Of a DNA stretch of 64,000 bases, positions 9,697 through 50,439 are shown piece after piece; position 1 is the first letter of the stretch, and each line of letters opens with the position of its first letter. Under the pieces are notes generated by a model. It did no database searches, was not told where the DNA came from, and saw only the letters and a list, made by a program, of their open reading frames with translations. The position numbers and the translations under genes were made by a program. Source of the DNA: Halanaerobiales bacterium (GTDB lineage: Bacteria; Bacillota; Halanaerobiia; Halanaerobiales; Halanaerobiaceae); contig JADQBT010000008.1 in NCBI GenBank assembly GCA_016278485.1, positions 1-64,000 on the forward strand, in the 5' to 3' direction.

Positions 9697-9775
9697 GTGT
9701 AAATAAAGGACTTTTTTACTAATTAGCGAATAAATATATAAGAACAGAAAAATACAAAAAAGAATATTTTTCGAT

Positions 9776-9852
9776 AAGAAAAGGCAAACCTATCGTGAGG
9801 TAGGGACGCAAAGCTATGGGTCTAAAAAACTATGATTGCCAGGCTACCGATT
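9776..9852 (+). ncRNA. c-di-GMP-I (GEMM) riboswitch aptamer
   Basis: The conserved core elements of the GEMM motif occur in order: GGCAAACC, GGGACGCAAAGC, a GGGTCTAA stretch, and GATTGCCAGGCTACCG. This RNA binds c-di-GMP. It precedes a GGDEF-EAL gene, so the second messenger probably controls the synthesis of a protein that degrades it. A terminator-like hairpin follows directly. Confidence 0.93.
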
Positions 9853-9892: not shown

Positions 9893-9920
9893 TTTAGCAG
9901 AATAGTTGGGGGTATTTATT

Positions 9921-11597
9921 ATGGAATCTAATAATCATTATGGGCAGTTTAAATCGCTATTTGAAAATAATATAGAAGCAACATATATGATTAATGATCA
10001 TAAGAAATTTACTTTAGTTAATAAAAAAACTGAAGAATTAACTGGTTTTTCTAGAGATCAATTATTAGATATGACTTTTGATAAATTAATAATTGATGAG
10101 GATATTAGTTTTGTTATAAATGCTTATTACTCTGCCTTATCTGGCAATATAGAGGAATTTGATTGTCGATTATTAAGAAGTGATAATAAGACTATTGAAA
10201 TAAGAGTAAAAATATTTCCGGTTGATCTAAATAGGAGTGAAATGGGTATTTGGGGAATTGCTAAAGATATTAGTACAATCAAAAATATGCAAAGTAATAA
10301 GGATTTTTATAAACACTTGACTCTATTACCTGGTCGTGACTATATTTATGAATATTTTAAAAAAATATTTCCATATGAAATCGAAAAAGAAATGGGATGT
10401 TTGTTTATTGATATTGATCATTTCAGTGAAATAAATGATTATTATGGTTATGAAAAAGGCGATCAGCTATTGACATCTATTGCCAAAAATCTTCGCAACA
10501 GTGTTCGGCCAAAAGATATTGTTGTTCATGATAGCCGGGACAAATTTATTATAATTTTAAAAGGTATTGGACAGAACAAAATTGATAAAATCATAGATAG
10601 GATTAAAAATTCAATAGAAAAAAGTTATCTAATAAATAATAATAATATTTATATATCGGTAAGTATTGGTATTAGTACATATACTAATTCAAAAAATAAT
10701 GTAGATAAACTATTAAAAAATGCAAATGCAGCAATGAACTTTGTAAAAAAACTTGGTGGAAATAATTATTTGTTTTATTCAAGTGAACTGGATGATAATT
10801 TAAAAGATAAAATAAAAATGCAATCTGATATAATTAAAGGAATAAAAAATAGTGAATTTATGGTTTACTATCAACCACAAGTAGATATAAAAACAGAAAA
10901 AATAATTGGTTTGGAGGCATTAGCAAGATGGAAACATCCTGACTATGGTTTTATTTCACCTGATAAATTTATACGTTTGGCAGAAGAAAGAAATTTAATT
11001 AATTATCTGGGCAAATATCTTGCTGATTATGCATTAAAAGAGTTTAAAAAATTATTAAATTTAAATAATCCAAACCTTAAATTAGCTATAAATTTTTCTA
11101 GAAAACAACTTTATGATAGTAATTTTATTGATGAATTTATTAAATTAGTCAATAAATATAATATTCCTTATCAAAATTTAGAAATAGAAATAACCGAAAG
11201 TATGATTATGAAATTAGAATTTGCTCTACCAATTTTGCTAAGATTAAAGAAATTAGGAATTAAAATTGCTTTTGATGACTTTGGTACTGGTTATTCGTCT
11301 TTAAGTTTATTAGGAGAACTGCCTTTAGACAGTTTGAAAATTGATGCAACATTTATGAAAAATATTGGACAACAAAATAAGAAAAAAAACCTTCTTAAAA
11401 TAATTACTGATTTAGGTCATAACTTTGATCTGTTGGTTTTAGCAGAAGGGGTTGAACATAAATATGAGGTTGATTATTTAGAGAAAATTGATTGTGACCA
11501 AGTACAAGGTTATTACTACAGTAAGCCGAAGCCATTTGTGGAGATGAAAAAGATATTGAAAAATTCTAAAGCAATAGCTGGAGTTGAAAAAATATGA
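9921..11597 (+). CDS. PAS-degenerate GGDEF-EAL c-di-GMP phosphodiesterase
   Basis: Cytoplasmic 558-aa protein with PAS (about 10-125), GGDEF-type (about 135-290) and EAL (about 300-550) domains. The GGDEF signature is degenerate (DSRDKF), so cyclase activity is unlikely, but the RPKD inhibitory-site motif five residues before it is kept, which suggests a ligand-binding regulatory role. The EAL part keeps LEALARW, the DDFGTGYS metal-binding motif, AEGVE and QGYYYSKP, so it should cleave c-di-GMP to pGpG. Start: ATG eight bases after GGGGG; an upstream TTG would overlap that site. Controlled by the c-di-GMP-I riboswitch just upstream and first gene of a three-gene overlapping operon. Confidence 0.92.
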   Translation: MESNNHYGQFKSLFENNIEATYMINDHKKFTLVNKKTEELTGFSRDQLLDMTFDKLIIDEDISFVINAYYSALSGNIEEFDCRLLRSDNKTIEIRVKIFPVDLNRSEMGIWGIAKDISTIKNMQSNKDFYKHLTLLPGRDYIYEYFKKIFPYEIEKEMGCLFIDIDHFSEINDYYGYEKGDQLLTSIAKNLRNSVRPKDIVVHDSRDKFIIILKGIGQNKIDKIIDRIKNSIEKSYLINNNNIYISVSIGISTYTNSKNNVDKLLKNANAAMNFVKKLGGNNYLFYSSELDDNLKDKIKMQSDIIKGIKNSEFMVYYQPQVDIKTEKIIGLEALARWKHPDYGFISPDKFIRLAEERNLINYLGKYLADYALKEFKKLLNLNNPNLKLAINFSRKQLYDSNFIDEFIKLVNKYNIPYQNLEIEITESMIMKLEFALPILLRLKKLGIKIAFDDFGTGYSSLSLLGELPLDSLKIDATFMKNIGQQNKKKNLLKIITDLGHNFDLLVLAEGVEHKYEVDYLEKIDCDQVQGYYYSKPKPFVEMKKILKNSKAIAGVEKI

Positions 11598-31444: not shown

Positions 31445-31574
31445 AATATAATTATTTGTCATAATAAGTAAAAAAATTAATTAATAAGCAGGAATTTTTA
31501 GTTTTATGTATAATATAAGTATTAGATACTGAAAATTTATAACTTTTGTACTATTGACTTTATCTAATTGTATA

Positions 31575-31652
31575 TTTGGCAAACCCATTGAAAAATGGTG
31601 GCGCAAAGCTCTGGGTCTAAAAATCTAGTTGATTTATGACTGCCAGGCTGCT
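31575..31652 (+). ncRNA. c-di-GMP-I (GEMM) riboswitch aptamer, second copy
   Basis: The GEMM core is present: TTGGCAAACC, GGCGCAAAGC, GGGTCTAA, then GACTGCCAGGCTGCTG. It precedes a PAS-PAS-GGDEF gene, so c-di-GMP probably feeds back on its own synthesis. It differs from the first copy in its P2 and P3 stems, but the conserved joining regions are the same. Confidence 0.92.
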
Positions 31653-31662
31653 GTTAGTTTGC

Positions 31663-31692: not shown

Positions 31693-31726
31693 GTTGTATC
31701 AGTCTGTATTTCTTGAAGGGAAGATT

Positions 31727-32986
31727 ATGATGGATTTTGATGAGTTGAAGTTAGTTGAAAAAGAACGTTATGAGTTAGCAGTTAGAGGAGCTAATCTGGG
31801 TCTTTGGGACTGGAACGTCTTGACTGGGAAAGTAACTTATAACGATAATTGGGCAGAAATGCTTGGTTATACCCTAGATGAAGTTGAAGGAACATTGATG
31901 GAGTGGAAAAGGCTTGTTCATGTTAATGACCTTAAAAGGGTGGAAAAAAAACTGCAAGCTCATTTGTCTGGAGAAACGGAAGTATATAAAACAGAACACC
32001 GTTTAAGAACAAAAGATGGTTCCTATAAATGGATTCTTGATATGGGTAGAGTCATTAAACGTGATGAAAACGGACAGGCTTTACGAGTAGTTGGAATTCA
32101 TCATGACATTCATCAGAAGAAAACAGCTGAACTTAATTTAAAAAAACAAATAGCCTATTTCCAGGAGTTATTTGAAAAATCACCAGAAGCTATAATTCTG
32201 CTTGATAAAGAGGCAAAAGTTATTAAAGTTAACAAAAGTTTTGAAAACTTATTCGGTTATACGGAAGCAGAAGTAAAAGAACAGCTTATAAATAATTTTA
32301 TTATTCCATCTGAAGAAATAGAAACTGCAGAGAAAATTGATGAGATGATAAAGAATGGTAAGACTTATTTTGGAGAAGGAGTTAGAAAAGATAAAAATGG
32401 CAGAAGAATAGATGTAGCTATCCATGCCTATCCGATTAAACTTGATGAGGATCAATTAGGTATTTATGGTGTCTATAATGATATATCTGAGCGGAAAATA
32501 GAAGAGGAAAAAATTAAGTACCTTTCTTTTCATGATCAGTTAACTAGTCTATATAACCGTCGCTATTTTGAAAATGAGTTGGAAAGATTAAATAATAGTC
32601 GGCAAGTACCGATCAGTATTATAGTTGCTGATCTTGATGGTTTGAAAGAAATTAATGATAATTTTGGACATAAAGAAGGAGATATATATATTAAGATAGC
32701 AGCAAATGTAATTAAAGCTTCTGTAAGGGAGGAAGATATTGTAGCCCGAATTGGGGGCGATGAGTTTGCAGTTATTTTACCTGGTACAGAGCATGAGGCT
32801 GCTGGAGAAATTATTGCAAGGATTGAACAATACTGTCAGGAAATTAATAATCAGATGGAACGTGGTCTAAGTATTTCCTGTGGTTGTGAAACTTTAGCTG
32901 ATAGTAGTCAAGATTTAAATCAAATTTTCAAAGAAGCAGATGATATGATGTATGAAAAGAAAAAGCAGAAAAAATGTCGGAGTTAA
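31727..32986 (+). CDS. PAS-PAS-GGDEF diguanylate cyclase
   Basis: A 419-aa cytoplasmic protein with a PAS_3-type domain (about 10-130, GLWDWNVLTGKV), a second PAS (about 135-255) and a GGDEF domain (about 260-415) with intact RIGGDEF and an REED inhibitory site. It should make c-di-GMP from GTP in response to the signals sensed by the PAS domains. Start: ATG after GAAGGGAAG; an upstream TTG would extend into the riboswitch region. It is controlled by the GEMM riboswitch just upstream. Confidence 0.93.
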   Translation: MMDFDELKLVEKERYELAVRGANLGLWDWNVLTGKVTYNDNWAEMLGYTLDEVEGTLMEWKRLVHVNDLKRVEKKLQAHLSGETEVYKTEHRLRTKDGSYKWILDMGRVIKRDENGQALRVVGIHHDIHQKKTAELNLKKQIAYFQELFEKSPEAIILLDKEAKVIKVNKSFENLFGYTEAEVKEQLINNFIIPSEEIETAEKIDEMIKNGKTYFGEGVRKDKNGRRIDVAIHAYPIKLDEDQLGIYGVYNDISERKIEEEKIKYLSFHDQLTSLYNRRYFENELERLNNSRQVPISIIVADLDGLKEINDNFGHKEGDIYIKIAANVIKASVREEDIVARIGGDEFAVILPGTEHEAAGEIIARIEQYCQEINNQMERGLSISCGCETLADSSQDLNQIFKEADDMMYEKKKQKKCRS

Positions 32987-34991: not shown

Positions 34992-35031
34992 AAAGTTGAC
35001 TGTCCATTTTATGGATTAGTCAACTTTTTTT
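34992..35031 (+). terminator. Intrinsic terminator of MarR-MATE operon
   Basis: AAAGTTGACT (34992-35001) pairs with AGTCAACTTT (35018-35027), with an inner GTCCAT/ATGGAT stem, followed by seven T. It overlaps the last codons of the convergent permease gene. Confidence 0.88.
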
Positions 35032-36096
35032 AATAATCCCATAGGTTAATCCGGCTAGCATTAATAGTCCGGCATAGCCAACAGCCGGATACAGGTAGCG
35101 GACTAGATTGGAAAATCCGAATTGGCTTGCTCCTAAGGCTAGTAAAGTTGTGATAATCACAATGGGTCGATAATTTTTGCTGGAATTTTTAACTAGTCGG
35201 GCACCAAATCCGTAGAGATTGCCAACAGCGGTAGTGTAAATTTCTGCTATTAAAATTATACTATATATAAATTGTAATTCAGAACGAAAACGTCCGGCAA
35301 CATAAATCATAGGTATTTCATAGTTAGCTGCTTGTGGCATATTAAGCATTATACTGATCAGAATGGCAGTTGCACCAATACCAAGTCCAATTCCACCCCA
35401 GATAGCACCTTTTTTTAATCGATCTTTATTTTTTACTTTTGCACCTAATGGAGCTAAAACAGCAACAGCTATGACCAGATTATATGATGTATAATTAAAT
35501 GCAGCTAAAAACCAGTTGGGAAGAGGAGCAGCAGCGGTAGGTGTAGAAATCTCTGCTAAATTAAAAGGTAAACTATTAAATATTGTTAAGATACCAAGTG
35601 ATAATACTCCAGTTAATAATAACGGGACGACAAAACTAATGGCAGAAATTACCCCTTCAATTCCCATTAATACAGTTAGTAATGACGCTAAGGCCATTAT
35701 AATGTTTCCCCAGACAGAACTAATACCTAACTGTTCGGTAAAAATAGCACCTGAACCAGCAATCATAGCAGTTAAAGCTCCAAATAGGAAAAATGTAATA
35801 ACGAGATCGATGAATAGGCCTAACCATTTTCCAGCGGCATGTCGAATAACCTCCAAATGGGATTGGGCTGCAAACTGTTGGCCCAATTTTAAAATAATAT
35901 ATCCATAAACAACAAAAAGAAAAGTAGTTAAGAGTAAACCAAGAAAACCGTTTAAACCATAATAACCGAAAAATTGTAAAACTTCTTGACCTGAGGCAAA
36001 TCCTGCACCCACAATTGTACCAATGTAAGTAGCTGCTATTTTAAAGGTTGATATATCTTTTTTAGTTGTTGTATGTTCATTTTTTGTTTTTATCAT
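35020..36096 (-). CDS. YkvI-like LeuT-fold membrane protein
   Basis: A 358-aa membrane protein of about ten helices. The first helix carries the family-typical YIGTIVGAGFASGQEVLQFF, recalling YkvI and other amino-acid permease-like proteins of spore formers. Substrate unknown. The N-terminus is charged and Thr-rich. The ribosome-binding site is weak. Its 3' end overlaps the terminator of the convergent MATE gene. It is divergent from the betaine transporter operon. Confidence 0.8.
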   Translation of the reverse strand: MIKTKNEHTTTKKDISTFKIAATYIGTIVGAGFASGQEVLQFFGYYGLNGFLGLLLTTFLFVVYGYIILKLGQQFAAQSHLEVIRHAAGKWLGLFIDLVITFFLFGALTAMIAGSGAIFTEQLGISSVWGNIIMALASLLTVLMGIEGVISAISFVVPLLLTGVLSLGILTIFNSLPFNLAEISTPTAAAPLPNWFLAAFNYTSYNLVIAVAVLAPLGAKVKNKDRLKKGAIWGGIGLGIGATAILISIMLNMPQAANYEIPMIYVAGRFRSELQFIYSIILIAEIYTTAVGNLYGFGARLVKNSSKNYRPIVIITTLLALGASQFGFSNLVRYLYPAVGYAGLLMLAGLTYGIIKKS

Positions 36097-36177
36097 TTTT
36101 AATCACCATTGATATTCTTATACAACTTTCATAATAATATACCTAATTTATAGATAATAGATAATTTGTTATTTCGT

Positions 36178-36206
36178 TTGACAGACCGGATTATCTTTGT
36201 TATTAT
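36178..36206 (+). promoter_or_regulatory. SigA-type promoter of betaine operon
   Basis: TTGACA (36178-36183), a 17-base spacer and TATTAT (36201-36206) are near consensus. Transcription should start about 36213, leaving a leader of about 130 bases. Confidence 0.82.
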
Positions 36207-36212
36207 ACATGT

Positions 36213-36298
36213 TGGTGATATCACTCACACTTTAAGAGTGATAAAAAGTAAATGGTTTGGAAAGTGTGTGCAAGAACATACCTTCTGAGCCATTTTTT
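36213..36298 (+). promoter_or_regulatory. Structured leader with attenuator
   Basis: Hairpin 1 pairs TATCACTC (36219-36226) with GAGTGATA (36236-36243). A long terminator hairpin runs from AAATGG (36250-36255) to CCATTT (36290-36295), about 20 bp with wobbles and one mismatch, then six T. CACACTTT (36226-36233), in the loop of hairpin 1, is exactly complementary to AAAGTGTG (36261-36268) in the terminator stem, which suggests a switchable attenuator. No known riboswitch class was recognised. Confidence 0.65.
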
Positions 36299-36341
36299 CG
36301 TGCTATATAATATTTAATAAATTGGAGGTGAATATAATATA

Positions 36342-37529
36342 ATGATTGAGGTCAAGAACCTCTATAAAGTGTTTGGCAAAAAAACAGAGAGAGTGTTTCC
36401 TCTATTAGCGGAAGGTCTTAATAAAGAAGAAATCCTTGATAAAACAGGCAATACAGTTGGTGTTAATGATGCTAACTTTAAAGTTGAGGATGGAGAAATA
36501 TTTGTTATTATGGGTCTTTCCGGAAGTGGGAAATCTACTTTACTCAGATGTTTAAATAGATTAATTGAACCTACCCAGGGAGAAATTCTTTATGATAATG
36601 TAAATTTGACTGATCTTAATAAAAAAGAACTTAGAGAGTTTAGAAAAGATAAATTTGGTATGGTTTTTCAACATTTTGCGCTTTTTCCTTATCGAACGGT
36701 ACAAGAAAATGCTGAGTTTGGATTGGAGATGCAAAATATTCCAGCTGAAGAACGTCAGCAACGAGCAAAAAAAGCTTTAGAAAGAGTAGGATTAAGTGGT
36801 TATGAAGATCAAATGCCAGATCAATTAAGTGGTGGCATGCAACAAAGAGTAGGGCTGGCCAGAGCATTGGCAGTTGAAACTGATGTCTTGCTTATGGATG
36901 AACCCTTTAGTGCTCTTGATCCACTGATCAAAAAAGAGATGCAGGATAAGTTACTTGAGCTATATGAAGAATTGGATAAGACAATTATTTTCATTACTCA
37001 TGATCTTGATGAAGCCTTAAAATTAGGTGATAGGATAGCTATCATGAAAGATGGAAAAATTATTCAGATTGGTAATCATGAAGAGATATTAAAAAATGCC
37101 GAAAATGATTATGTACGTGATTTTGTACAGGATGTTAATCGGTCCCGGGTATTAACTGCAGAGGATATTATGATTAGGCCCTTGGCTCAACTCTACCCAC
37201 AGGATGGTTTTCGTACTGCTATTCATAAGATGAAGAAGGCAGGTATTAGTTCTATTTTTGCTGTAGAAAGAAATCGTACTCTGCGTGGTATTGTGTATCT
37301 GGAAGATGTAGTTGAGGTTTTGAAGGAAGATCTAGAAGATGATACTAAAATTGAAGATTTAGTCAAGGAAGTACCAACAGCTGATCCAGCTGAAAATTTG
37401 GATGAACTTTTAGCGGATATTGCGAATCTCGATATTCCACTTCCGGTAGTTGATGAGAATAATAAATTACTTGGGGTAATTGTTAAGACAAATGTACTTG
37501 CAAATCTTGCTGGTGAAGACGTTATATAG
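36342..37529 (+). CDS. proV: Glycine betaine/proline ABC transporter ATPase
   Basis: A 395-aa ATP-binding subunit of the ProV/OpuAA type. The N-terminal extension FGKKTERVFPLLAEGLNKEE is characteristic, followed by Walker A GLSGSGKST, signature LSGGMQQR, Walker B LLMDEPF and two C-terminal CBS domains (about 280-395), which sense ionic strength in OpuA. It powers uptake of compatible solutes. First gene of a three-gene operon, preceded by a structured leader. Confidence 0.93.
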   Translation: MIEVKNLYKVFGKKTERVFPLLAEGLNKEEILDKTGNTVGVNDANFKVEDGEIFVIMGLSGSGKSTLLRCLNRLIEPTQGEILYDNVNLTDLNKKELREFRKDKFGMVFQHFALFPYRTVQENAEFGLEMQNIPAEERQQRAKKALERVGLSGYEDQMPDQLSGGMQQRVGLARALAVETDVLLMDEPFSALDPLIKKEMQDKLLELYEELDKTIIFITHDLDEALKLGDRIAIMKDGKIIQIGNHEEILKNAENDYVRDFVQDVNRSRVLTAEDIMIRPLAQLYPQDGFRTAIHKMKKAGISSIFAVERNRTLRGIVYLEDVVEVLKEDLEDDTKIEDLVKEVPTADPAENLDELLADIANLDIPLPVVDENNKLLGVIVKTNVLANLAGEDVI

Positions 37530-37542
37530 GAGGTATAAATAT

Positions 37543-38481
37543 ATGAACAATTTAGTTAAAACTTTTGTTATATTGTTGGTTGTATCTACAATGCTTGCAG
37601 GTGGTTTTAGTGGATTACAAGCAGCTGATCAAAAAGAAATAAAATTTGGTTATGTGCAATGGCCAGGTGTAACAATTAAGACACATGTTGCCAAAAAAGT
37701 AGCCGAGTATCTAGGTTATGAAACAACTATGACAAGTGGTTCACAGGCTATTGTATTTAAAGGTATGGAGACTGGTGATATTGATGTCTTTTTGGGTAAT
37801 TGGATGCCAACTATGAAGATGCACTTTGATAAATATGAAGAAACTGGTGCAATTGAAAATGTAAGGGTTAATCTTTTAGATGTTGTCTATAAGACTGCTG
37901 TACCCAAATATGTATGGGATGCAGGTGTTCATTCCCTGGCAGATTTAAACGAACATGCAGACAAATTTAATAGTAAAATATATGGTATTGAACCTGGCAA
38001 TGAAGGTAATTTAATTATTAAAAATGCGATTGATAATAACACATATAATTTAGGTGAATGGTCATTACAGTCAAGTAGTACAGCTGGAATGATGACAGCT
38101 GTAAAGAGAGCCGTCCAAAGTGAAGAGTGGATTGCATTTAACGGCTGGAAACCACATTATATGAATGTGTTATTTGATATTAAATATTTAGAAGATCCAG
38201 AAAATATCTGGGGTGAAGGTGAAAGAGTACTCACCGTTGCTAGAACTGAATTTAAAAATGAAAATCCAAACTACTATAAGTTCTTGCAACAGTTCAAAGT
38301 AACTGCTCCTATGCAAAATCAATGGATTTATAATTATAAGCAGGAAGGTCAGGATCCAGAAGTAGCAGCAGAAGAGTGGATTGCTGAAAATCTTGGTATA
38401 GTAAACCAGTGGGTTTATGGTGTAGAATCTGTTGATGGCCGTATGGCTCGTAAAGTAATTAAAGAGAAAGTTGGCAAGTAA
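37543..38481 (+). CDS. proX: Glycine betaine-binding protein
   Basis: A 312-aa secreted substrate-binding protein of the ProX/OpuAC family. A signal peptide ends about GFSGLQA; no lipobox Cys is seen, which is unusual for a Gram-positive-type cell and fits a periplasm or another anchoring. The sequence FGYVQWPGVTIKTHVA and many Trp residues fit the aromatic box that binds quaternary amines. Start: ATG after AGGAGG; a frame extending upstream into proV is rejected. Confidence 0.9.
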   Translation: MNNLVKTFVILLVVSTMLAGGFSGLQAADQKEIKFGYVQWPGVTIKTHVAKKVAEYLGYETTMTSGSQAIVFKGMETGDIDVFLGNWMPTMKMHFDKYEETGAIENVRVNLLDVVYKTAVPKYVWDAGVHSLADLNEHADKFNSKIYGIEPGNEGNLIIKNAIDNNTYNLGEWSLQSSSTAGMMTAVKRAVQSEEWIAFNGWKPHYMNVLFDIKYLEDPENIWGEGERVLTVARTEFKNENPNYYKFLQQFKVTAPMQNQWIYNYKQEGQDPEVAAEEWIAENLGIVNQWVYGVESVDGRMARKVIKEKVGK

Positions 38482-38483
38482 AA

Positions 38484-39329
38484 ATGGCTTTTGTTGAGAA
38501 TATATTGGGTATCCTTGCTACAAGGATACCCATTGGTAACTGGATTCAGTCTCTAGTAGATTTTTTGGTAATTAATTTTAGTGGTTTATTTAACGGCTTT
38601 GCCGAAATTATCGATAATCTAATCAGTAGTTTTCAGGCAGTTTTATCATATGGCCATCCATTTTTGTTAATTGTGATCTTAGGTTTAATTGCCTGGAAGT
38701 TGAAAGGTAAGGGTCTAGCGCTTTTTGTTGTGCTAGGTCTCTATTTGGTCTGGAATATTGAAATGTGGGATCCATTAGTAGTCACTCTTGCTTCAATTAT
38801 CACTTCAGTGGTAGTGGCCTTAGTAATAGGTATTCCCACAGGGATTTTAAAAGCTCATAACAGGGCCGTTCATATTATTACCAGGCCGATTTTAGACTTT
38901 ATGCAGACAATTCCACCATTTGTTTATCTAATTCCAGCCTTGATGTTTTTTGGTCTGGGAAATGTTCCAGGAGTTATTGCAACAGTTATCTTTGCAATTG
39001 CTCCACCAATTAGGTTAACCTATCTTGGTATCAAACAGGTACCAGAAGAGTTAAAAGAAGCAGGTATAGCCTTTGGTAGTAACTGGTGGGAGATGTTATA
39101 TAAGATTGAACTACCTGGTGCCATGCCGTCTATTATGATGGGTATTAATCAGTGTATCATGCTCTCTCTTTCTATGGTTGTAATTTCAGCTATGATTGGA
39201 GCAGGTGGACTTGGTAAACCGGTTTTACGTTCACTTTCAGTGGTTGATATTGGGCTAGGTTTTGAAGCAGGACTTGGTGTTGTAATTATTGCCATGATTC
39301 TTGATAGAATGTTCGGCAGTAAGAATTAA
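38484..39329 (+). CDS. proW: Glycine betaine ABC transporter permease
   Basis: A 281-aa membrane subunit of the ProW/OpuAB type. It has an N-terminal helix region, then about six helices; the EAA loop reads EELKEAGIAFGSNWWEM and contacts ProV. It begins three bases after the proX stop and has no obvious ribosome-binding site, so translation is probably coupled. The 3' end overlaps the convergent phosphatase gene by four bases. Confidence 0.92.
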   Translation: MAFVENILGILATRIPIGNWIQSLVDFLVINFSGLFNGFAEIIDNLISSFQAVLSYGHPFLLIVILGLIAWKLKGKGLALFVVLGLYLVWNIEMWDPLVVTLASIITSVVVALVIGIPTGILKAHNRAVHIITRPILDFMQTIPPFVYLIPALMFFGLGNVPGVIATVIFAIAPPIRLTYLGIKQVPEELKEAGIAFGSNWWEMLYKIELPGAMPSIMMGINQCIMLSLSMVVISAMIGAGGLGKPVLRSLSVVDIGLGFEAGLGVVIIAMILDRMFGSKN

Positions 39330-48584: not shown

Positions 48585-48847
48585 ACTTAATAAAGTAATT
48601 AAAGACTTTGAGAGGGAGAAGTAAGCCTTTAAGTAATTTGCAGAGAGTCAGGGGTGCTGGAACCTGGCAATTAACACTGGCTGAAATACACCCTGGAGTT
48701 TCAGGCTGAAAAAATTGTAGGCCTTGACGTATTCCAACGTTAAATGGTGAGAGAGTGTTTGCTCTCAAAAGAGTGGATCTGTTTATAACAGATTAATTCA
48801 GGTGGTACCGCGCATTAGTCGTCCTGTATATCAGGAGGACTTTTTTT
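48585..48847 (+). ncRNA. T-box riboswitch, tyrosine-type specifier
   Basis: A full T-box leader: Stem I with GCAGAGAGTCAGGGGTGC and GGAACCTGGCA, the specifier region GCTGAAATACACCCTGGAG, the T-box AGGTGGTACCGCG (48800-48812) and a terminator AGTCGTCCTG (48817-48826) / CAGGAGGACT (48832-48841) with seven T. Read as GAAA-TAC-ACC, the specifier is TAC (Tyr). TGGT in the T-box pairs with an ACCA tRNA end, discriminator A, which fits tRNA-Tyr and argues against Trp (G) or His (C). Uncharged tRNA-Tyr should therefore switch the downstream gene on. Confidence 0.9.
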
Positions 48848-48921: not shown

Positions 48922-48972
48922 AACTGCCTTATAAATGGAAAATGAGTGTCAAATAAAAAAGGAGTGTGTAGC

Positions 48973-50439
48973 ATGGTAGAAAATAGTAGGTCAAGACAAA
49001 TTAAATTTCATTTTGGTGATAGTGTTCCCCTTGAGATGCACAAGGTAAGAATTGTGCAGAAGTTAAGTCTTCCCCCTGTTGAAGATCGTTTTAAGGCAAT
49101 TTCAGAAGCAGGTAATAATACATTTCTGCTTAATAATCGTGATGTATTTTTAGATATGTTGACAGACAGTGGTGTTAATGCTATGAGTGACAGGCAATTA
49201 GCTGCGATGATGGTTGCTGATGATAGTTATGCTGGGTCAGAAACTTTTTGTAGATTAGAGAAAAAAACAAGGGAAATATTCAATAAAAAACTTTTCTTGC
49301 CCACCCATCAAGGGAGAGCCTGTGAGAATATTCTGGCCCGGACTCTAGTTAATGCTGGTTCAGTAGTTCCAATGAATTATCATTTTACAACAACTAAAGC
49401 TCATATTGTAGAAAATGGTGGCACGGTAGAAGAGGTCTATATTGATGAGGCATTAGAGGTAGATAGTAATCATCCTTTTAAAGGCAATATGGATTTGGAA
49501 AAATTAAAAAATATTATAAAAATAAACGGTGCTGAAAAGATTCCTTTTATCCGTATCGAGGCAGGTACTAATTTGATTGGTGGTCAACCAGTTTCTCTTG
49601 CAAATATGCGGGGAGTTCGCAAGCTATGTGACCAATATGGGATTATGATTGTTTTTGATGCTAGTCTATTGGCAGATAATTTATATTTTATTAAGACCAG
49701 AGAAAAAGAATGTCAGGAGATGAGTATTCGAGAAATCACACAAGAAATCTCAAACTTAACTGATATAATATATTTTTCTGCTCGAAAATTGGGCAATGCC
49801 AGAGGTGGTGGTATTTGTACTAATAATGAGCAAGTATATTTGCAGATGCGTGAATTGTTGCCGCTTTATGAGGGTTTCCTTACTTATGGTGGGATGTCTG
49901 TGCGTGAGATGGAGGCAATTGCAGTTGGACTTGATGAGACAATGGATGAGGATATGATTAACCAAGGACCACAGTTTATAGCCTTTATGGTGGAAGAGCT
50001 TCAGAAAAAAGGTGTTCCAGTTGTAACACCAGCTGGTGGCTTAGGTTGTCATATTGATGCTATGCGTTTTCTTGATCACCTTGCGCAAACAGAATATCCT
50101 GCTGGTTCACTTGCTGCTGCCCTTTATCTTGTCAGTGGAATTAGAGGTATGGAGAGGGGAACTTTATCTGAACAGAGGGATGAAGCTGGTAATGAGACAT
50201 TATCAAATATGGAGCTATTACGTTTAGCTATGCCGAGGCGAGTTTTTACTCTTTCACAAGTTAAGTATGCTATTGATCGGATTGGTTGGTTATATGAAAA
50301 CCGTCAATTAATTGGAGGATTATCTTTTACGGAAGAGCCTAGAGTATTAAGGTTTTTCTTTGGGAAACTGCAGACCAGATCAGATTGGCAACTGAAACTA
50401 ATAGATAAGTTTAAAAATGATTTTGGAGATAGCCTTTAA
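48973..50439 (+). CDS. tpl: Tyrosine phenol-lyase-like PLP enzyme
   Basis: A 488-aa beta-eliminating lyase of the TPL/tryptophanase family. At the three positions that separate TPL from tryptophanase in my recall it has the TPL residues: FTTT (Thr124), GMERG (Arg381) and LRFFF (Phe448). The PLP Lys lies in SARKL. Unusual changes: the residue equal to Arg217 is Leu (DASLL), and the KKD around the Schiff-base Lys is RKL. The expected reaction is tyrosine to phenol, pyruvate and ammonia, reversible. Start: ATG nine bases after AGGAG. Regulated by the tyrosine T-box upstream. The exact substrate is uncertain. Confidence 0.8.
   Translation: MVENSRSRQIKFHFGDSVPLEMHKVRIVQKLSLPPVEDRFKAISEAGNNTFLLNNRDVFLDMLTDSGVNAMSDRQLAAMMVADDSYAGSETFCRLEKKTREIFNKKLFLPTHQGRACENILARTLVNAGSVVPMNYHFTTTKAHIVENGGTVEEVYIDEALEVDSNHPFKGNMDLEKLKNIIKINGAEKIPFIRIEAGTNLIGGQPVSLANMRGVRKLCDQYGIMIVFDASLLADNLYFIKTREKECQEMSIREITQEISNLTDIIYFSARKLGNARGGGICTNNEQVYLQMRELLPLYEGFLTYGGMSVREMEAIAVGLDETMDEDMINQGPQFIAFMVEELQKKGVPVVTPAGGLGCHIDAMRFLDHLAQTEYPAGSLAAALYLVSGIRGMERGTLSEQRDEAGNETLSNMELLRLAMPRRVFTLSQVKYAIDRIGWLYENRQLIGGLSFTEEPRVLRFFFGKLQTRSDWQLKLIDKFKNDFGDSL

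Follow-up and report, generated by a model that had tools for sequence, protein, structure and literature searches.

What sets the expression of a betaine- or choline-type importer in anaerobes that balance salt with cytoplasmic ions and hold little organic solute (PMC3817357)? Many members of this group still keep such an importer behind the same stop signal for transcription, and the question is raised by one such leader in the window, that is, the whole stretch of 64,000 nucleotides of Halanaerobiales DNA analyzed here. An earlier note on this DNA had described the leader as a switchable attenuator, in which a first hairpin and a terminator compete with an antiterminator pairing, and had proposed that osmoprotectant uptake is thereby controlled through a ligand, a protein, or the effect of ionic strength on RNA folding.

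Leader and operon in the window

The features of the locus are collected in Table 1. The promoter matches the consensus at 11 of 12 positions in addition to its extended -10 element, and the start of the leader was placed, by inference, 7 nt past the -10. The whole leader folds at -30.6 (z -4.46), with two hairpins of unequal weight. Hairpin 1, at -9.0 kcal/mol (z -2.45), is moderately more stable than expected by chance, 5 of 200 shuffled sequences being equally good, whereas the terminator, at -21.2 kcal/mol (z -5.3), far exceeds chance expectation, as none of 200 shuffles reached its stability. In the latter, positions 36250-36262 pair with 36283-36295, with one A.C mismatch, and 36264-36269 pair with 36276-36281, while the U-run corresponds to the six T at 36293-36298. 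A simple terminator scan of the leader returned nothing, probably because of the internal mismatch. Thus, the near-consensus promoter, the first hairpin, and the terminator of about 20 bp with six T are all present where the earlier note had placed them. We also noticed an imperfect inverted repeat around the -35 element (36172-36190), with equivalents in Halanaerobium (CGGTTTGACAGACCG in L042 and CAGTTTGACAGACTG in L046), which may be an operator.

Table 1. Features of the proV leader and operon in the window
Feature	Position	Strand	Description
Promoter	36178-36206	+	TTGACA (36178-36183), 17-nt spacer, TG (36198-36199), TATTAT (36201-36206); extended -10
Attenuated leader	36213-36298	+	Predicted terminated transcript of ~85 nt
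Hairpin 1	36219-36243	+	36219-36226 with 36236-36243; 8 bp, 9-nt loop
Proposed antiterminator strand	36226-36233	+	CACACTTT; window only
Intrinsic terminator (predicted), conserved core element	36250-36298	+	19 bp, one mismatch, U6
Conserved 5'-arm sequence	36254-36262	+	GGTTTGGAA; class motif TTTRGR, from motif comparison across leaders
Shine-Dalgarno sequence	36324-36328	+	GGAGG, 3' of the terminator
proV, ABC ATPase with two CBS domains	36342-37529	+	TIGR01186, 438 bits; PF00571 x2
proX/choX-like substrate-binding protein (betaine or choline)	37540-38481	+	PF04069; nearest structure 2reg; start codon of the listed ORF ambiguous
proW permease	38484-39329	+	

The leader is followed by the genes in the order proV-proX-proW, which, as judged from the domain matches of their products, encode an OpuA/ChoX-type ABC importer. 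Since the closest solved relative of the binding protein is a choline-binding protein, the designation of betaine transporter holds as regards an osmolyte ABC importer, but its substrate has to be read as betaine or choline. There is no regulator gene within the operon. In the window's genome, no match to a BCCT-type transporter was obtained, so the proV-proX-proW system may be one of its few routes for solutes of this kind. The gene located 5' of the leader (35020-36096, minus strand) is divergent, and it follows that the terminator cannot belong to it.

Conservation of the promoter and terminator

Orthologous proV loci were gathered from the window's order and from the rest of the class, and their upstream regions were read. 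In 34 of 35 orthologous operons, taken from the window's order, whose named members include Halanaerobium, Orenia, and Natroniella, and from a second order of the class, a leader terminator comes after a promoter. In the window's order, with the distant paralogue L062 left out of the count, the intrinsic terminator lies between promoter and start codon in 22 of 23 leaders, the exception being L056. The second order contributes 12 of 12, two of which were counted by eye: the L103 terminator falls under the energy cut of the detector, and in L104 the detector scored another, weaker hairpin, although a terminator of the L103 type is visible. Every leader scored as promoter plus terminator presents a perfect TTGACA with 16- to 17-nt spacing, the promoter being among the most conserved blocks of the leaders, and the terminator lies 40 to 130 nt past it. 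Furthermore, in two genomes of the second order with X-W-V gene order (L114 and L115), the promoter and terminator precede proX, indicating that the element is tied to the front of the operon and not to proV.

Outside this set the arrangement is rare. Of 19 Bacillota homologues that are more distant, about one carries a terminator behind a recognised promoter. Promoter plus terminator was scored in 2 of 26 controls, all of them genes lying next to a divergent neighbour; this is a small set taken from individual fetched loci only, scored with a home-made detector, and one proV and one proX had been removed from it. Fisher tests gave P values of about 1e-13 and 4e-12, which are only indicative because the genomes are related. 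None of 28 BCCT transporter genes of the same order has a promoter plus terminator; several of them (L141 to L146 and L151) carry a terminator-like hairpin 3 to 100 nt before the start, with no recognised promoter upstream of the hairpin. At the level of sequence, the leader terminator is thus conserved across a class of salt-loving anaerobes.

The proposed antiterminator pairing

The central element of the switch proposed earlier was the pairing of CACACTTT, in the loop region of hairpin 1, with AAAGTGTG (36261-36268) inside the terminator. The complementarity is real, exact, and rare, with one match in 64 kb and none expected in shuffled sequences; within the leader, its chance probability is about 0.005, a value to be read with the post hoc choice of the pairing in mind. 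Of the eight bases of CACACTTT, seven sit in the hairpin 1 loop, so a pseudoknot could form without the opening of hairpin 1. It follows that only the upper portion of the terminator would be in competition with the pairing, and not, as had been suggested, hairpin 1 plus terminator.

The energetics can be read on both sides. While positions 36268-36280 are being transcribed, the alternative fold transiently has the lowest energy (-11.5 versus about -9), but it loses once the 3' arm of the terminator emerges, and the forced pairing lies 16.6 kcal/mol above the terminator fold. Moreover, an outer stem of 11 bp still pairs next to the U-run when the inner 5' arm is occupied, so that termination need not be prevented by the pairing. 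No counterpart was detected, by exact complement and duplex energy, in any of the 16 other tested leaders with an upstream segment, where the longest exact complement spans 4 to 7 nt, at chance level except for L055 (7 nt, P 0.03). In L048, L050, L051, and L052, the -10 element is so near that the terminator hairpin should be the first part of the transcript; as these four orthologues have no room upstream of the terminator, the core function cannot depend on an upstream antiterminator. An RNA switch between these two folds is therefore very improbable as the conserved mechanism, and the switchable antiterminator does not hold for the group, even though the pairing might still provide a refinement specific to the window's genome.

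Conserved elements of the terminator

In the aligned terminator stems, 85.8% of cells are paired, and seven pairs are changed on both sides; the covariation score is 0.303, compared with 0.206 for shuffled alignments and at most 0.185 when the stem is slid. The alignment of leaders that the earlier note had recommended thus gave a divided answer, with covariation in the terminator stem and no conservation of the antiterminator pairing, while the description of an attenuator-type leader is borne out by these compensatory changes together with the recurrence of the promoter and terminator. The upper stem, the loops, and the internal loops vary freely in length and sequence across families, and the remainder of the leader is not alignable between them. 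The 5' arm is also conserved in sequence, with TTTRGR present in 20 of the 32 leaders compared, whereas the 219 other terminators of this material all lack it; this conservation could partly reflect common ancestry.

Hairpin 1 lies outside the conserved core. A hairpin placed like it (TTATCAG..CTGATAA) is found in Halanaerobium leaders, without covariation, and the four leaders beginning at the terminator have no counterpart. In six Halanaerobium leaders (L042, L044, L045, L046, L047, and L059), two further hairpins, GCGGG..CCCGC and TTATTATCAG..CTGATAATAA, lie 5' of the terminator and are conserved in the genus.

A covariance model of the terminator, run against 38 genomes of the order, returned at E < 1e-3 essentially these leaders alone and hence essentially no other regulon members in the order. 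The exceptions were these hairpins read in antisense and a single hairpin in genome G036. In the wider phylum the matches were weak, and the best one checked (L093) was rejected as an ordinary terminator between convergent genes. The G036 hairpin (L084, positions 1501-1553, contig C48) is a copy of the leader hairpin located behind an fmdB-type gene, with no adjacent proV operon; the genome is 62% complete, and the copy is possibly a deletion relic or an assembly effect.

This copy bears on the possibility that the hairpin precedes proV by coincidence, being either an independent small RNA gene or a terminator of the upstream gene. In family f7, the upstream gene shares the strand of the operon and encodes an FmdB-type zinc-ribbon protein. 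Nevertheless, the window, L116, and L120 have a divergent upstream gene, the promoter sits between upstream gene and terminator, most leaders have no alternative promoter between the terminator and the start codon, and the f7 transcripts would consist of the hairpin alone. We regard a coincidental element as highly improbable.

Candidate signals and known classes

An effect of ionic strength on terminator stability was evaluated with the ViennaRNA salt correction from 0.1 to 2 M in 21 leader terminators. Direct salt sensing would suit members of an order that hold high cytoplasmic salt (PMC3817357), and the stems are imperfect; but higher salt stabilises all 21 terminators in this model, which covers folding only and leaves effects on the polymerase outside. 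Since import would then fall as salt rises, the sign is the wrong one, and we give little credence to this form of control, which the earlier note had listed.

As for a ligand, the search against Rfam, at both gathering and relaxed thresholds, gave no match in the window leader or in the scanned orthologue loci, the best subthreshold matches being to unrelated families, in agreement with the earlier statement that no known riboswitch core is recognised. Single-hairpin riboswitches exist (thiS/HMP-PP, as cited in PMC8632094), and a position ahead of an importer would suit a terminator hairpin acting as a small riboswitch for betaine, choline, or c-di-AMP. Its loops and internal loops vary, though, and no conserved unpaired nucleotides occur across the leaders, of the kind that a protein, too, would typically read; control through a ligand is therefore disfavoured, and such a riboswitch seems quite unlikely. 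Rfam families were recognised elsewhere in the window, namely a c-di-GMP-I-GGC riboswitch (9774-9852, plus strand) and a c-di-GMP-I riboswitch (31568-31655, plus strand), located just 5' of proteins that by sequence inspection are of PAS-GGDEF-EAL (9906-11597) and PAS-GGDEF (31694-32986) type, respectively, and a T-box leader (48599-48829, plus strand, 142.7 bits) before a protein resembling, by inspection, a tryptophanase or beta-eliminating lyase (48946-50439).

Other established arrangements were compared with the leader. A 21-codon open reading frame, MVWKVCARTYLLSHFFVLYNI, starts with the ATG at 36252 and crosses the terminator (36252-36317, plus strand), but a leader-peptide attenuator was rejected, as the frame is not conserved in relatives, the aligned Halanaerobium leaders (e.g., L042) reading ATG GTT TAG at its start, and family f7 has no leader before the hairpin. 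A two-hairpin antiterminator of the ANTAR type needs hexaloops with A1 and G4; the loop of hairpin 1 has 9 nt, and the terminator loop, GCAAGA, has G1 and A4. No conserved layout of the RAT/BglG-LicT kind, in which a RAT hairpin overlaps the 5' arm of the terminator, was seen by eye. A trans-acting small RNA complementary to the 5' arm was not found in four Halanaerobium genomes besides the leader itself, and in the window's genome such complements were at chance level. Finally, the terminator was discarded as a DNA operator, since its arms are separated by anything between 4 and about 40 nt, a spread unsuited to a dimer site.

A proposed transcription attenuator without an RNA-encoded antiterminator

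We consider it slightly more probable than not that the leader is a class-wide transcription attenuator for the osmolyte-import operon, without an RNA-encoded antiterminator, whose read-through is controlled. The strong promoter would start transcription, and the terminator would stop some or most transcripts ahead of the first gene, so that expression of proV-proX-proW would depend on read-through. At the level of sequence, the architecture, its restriction to the clade, and the constraints on stem and 5' arm show the terminator itself to be the conserved unit. Efficient termination in the cell and regulation of read-through by osmotic conditions are what we infer from this conservation, and the regulator would presumably be external to the RNA: a trans factor acting on the nascent 5' arm or hairpin, such as an RNA-binding antiterminator, or the state of RNA polymerase, rather than an RNA switch.

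The main alternative is a fixed attenuator, in which the terminator would merely lower or buffer a strong promoter, and osmotic control would come from a DNA-binding regulator that acts at the promoter or from the CBS domains of the transporter. OpuA CBS domains gate transport by ionic strength, and ProV has two such domains; the marked conservation of the promoter and the lack of a conserved sensor structure or alternative fold also agree with this explanation. On the other hand, to retain a terminator behind a strong promoter over such a time, in 34 of 35 operons, would be a costly means of setting a constant level, and the stem sequence is kept beyond pairing. A fixed attenuator is thus a possible explanation, to which we assign a distinctly minor share of probability.

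A bolder form of regulated read-through can be put forward tentatively. It is possible to hypothesize a minimal osmotic attenuator, invented in salt-in bacteria of one class and consisting of a lone hairpin, in some species at the first transcribed nucleotide, whose read-through would be set directly by ionic or osmotic conditions in the cytoplasm, via RNA polymerase or a dedicated RNA-binding factor; we hold this to be rather doubtful. If read-through of the conserved terminator is osmotically set, the leader would report the decision of a salt-in cell to use organic solutes, and it would show an attenuator working without an RNA antiterminator.

Comparison with known systems

Literature searches returned no description of this leader, which is an attenuator type absent from Rfam. 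Its succession of promoter, short leader, intrinsic terminator, and genes is shared with the trp, pyr, and RAT/LicT attenuators and with riboswitch expression platforms. These systems, however, possess a conserved competing antiterminator, a leader peptide, or a protein site, whereas no such conserved element occurs in the present leaders, and in four orthologues the terminator has no RNA before it. The c-di-AMP (ydaO-yuaA) riboswitch, which is linked to potassium and osmolyte genes, resembles the leader in the control of osmotic genes at a leader terminator, but differs in its large multi-helix aptamer, to which nothing corresponds in the Rfam results for the leader or the scanned orthologue loci.

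The nearest published item that we found is the proX motif (SRC-29-1) of Spiribacter, a riboswitch candidate in which the P2 stem hides the ribosome-binding site (PMC8632094). Both are structured leaders of salt-water bacteria and stand before a betaine transporter gene, but the phyla are different, no shared structure was found, and the translational P2 of the motif contrasts with the intrinsic terminator and exposed Shine-Dalgarno sequence described here. Membership in this motif was rejected, as a U-run comes after the conserved helix and before GGAGG, with no sequestration of the ribosome-binding site by P2. In Escherichia coli, the mRNA of the choline transporter BetT is controlled by RNase III under osmotic stress (PMC4067347); the two systems share control of an osmoprotectant transporter at the RNA level after initiation, which is exerted by mRNA cleavage in betT and, as predicted for the leader, by termination here.
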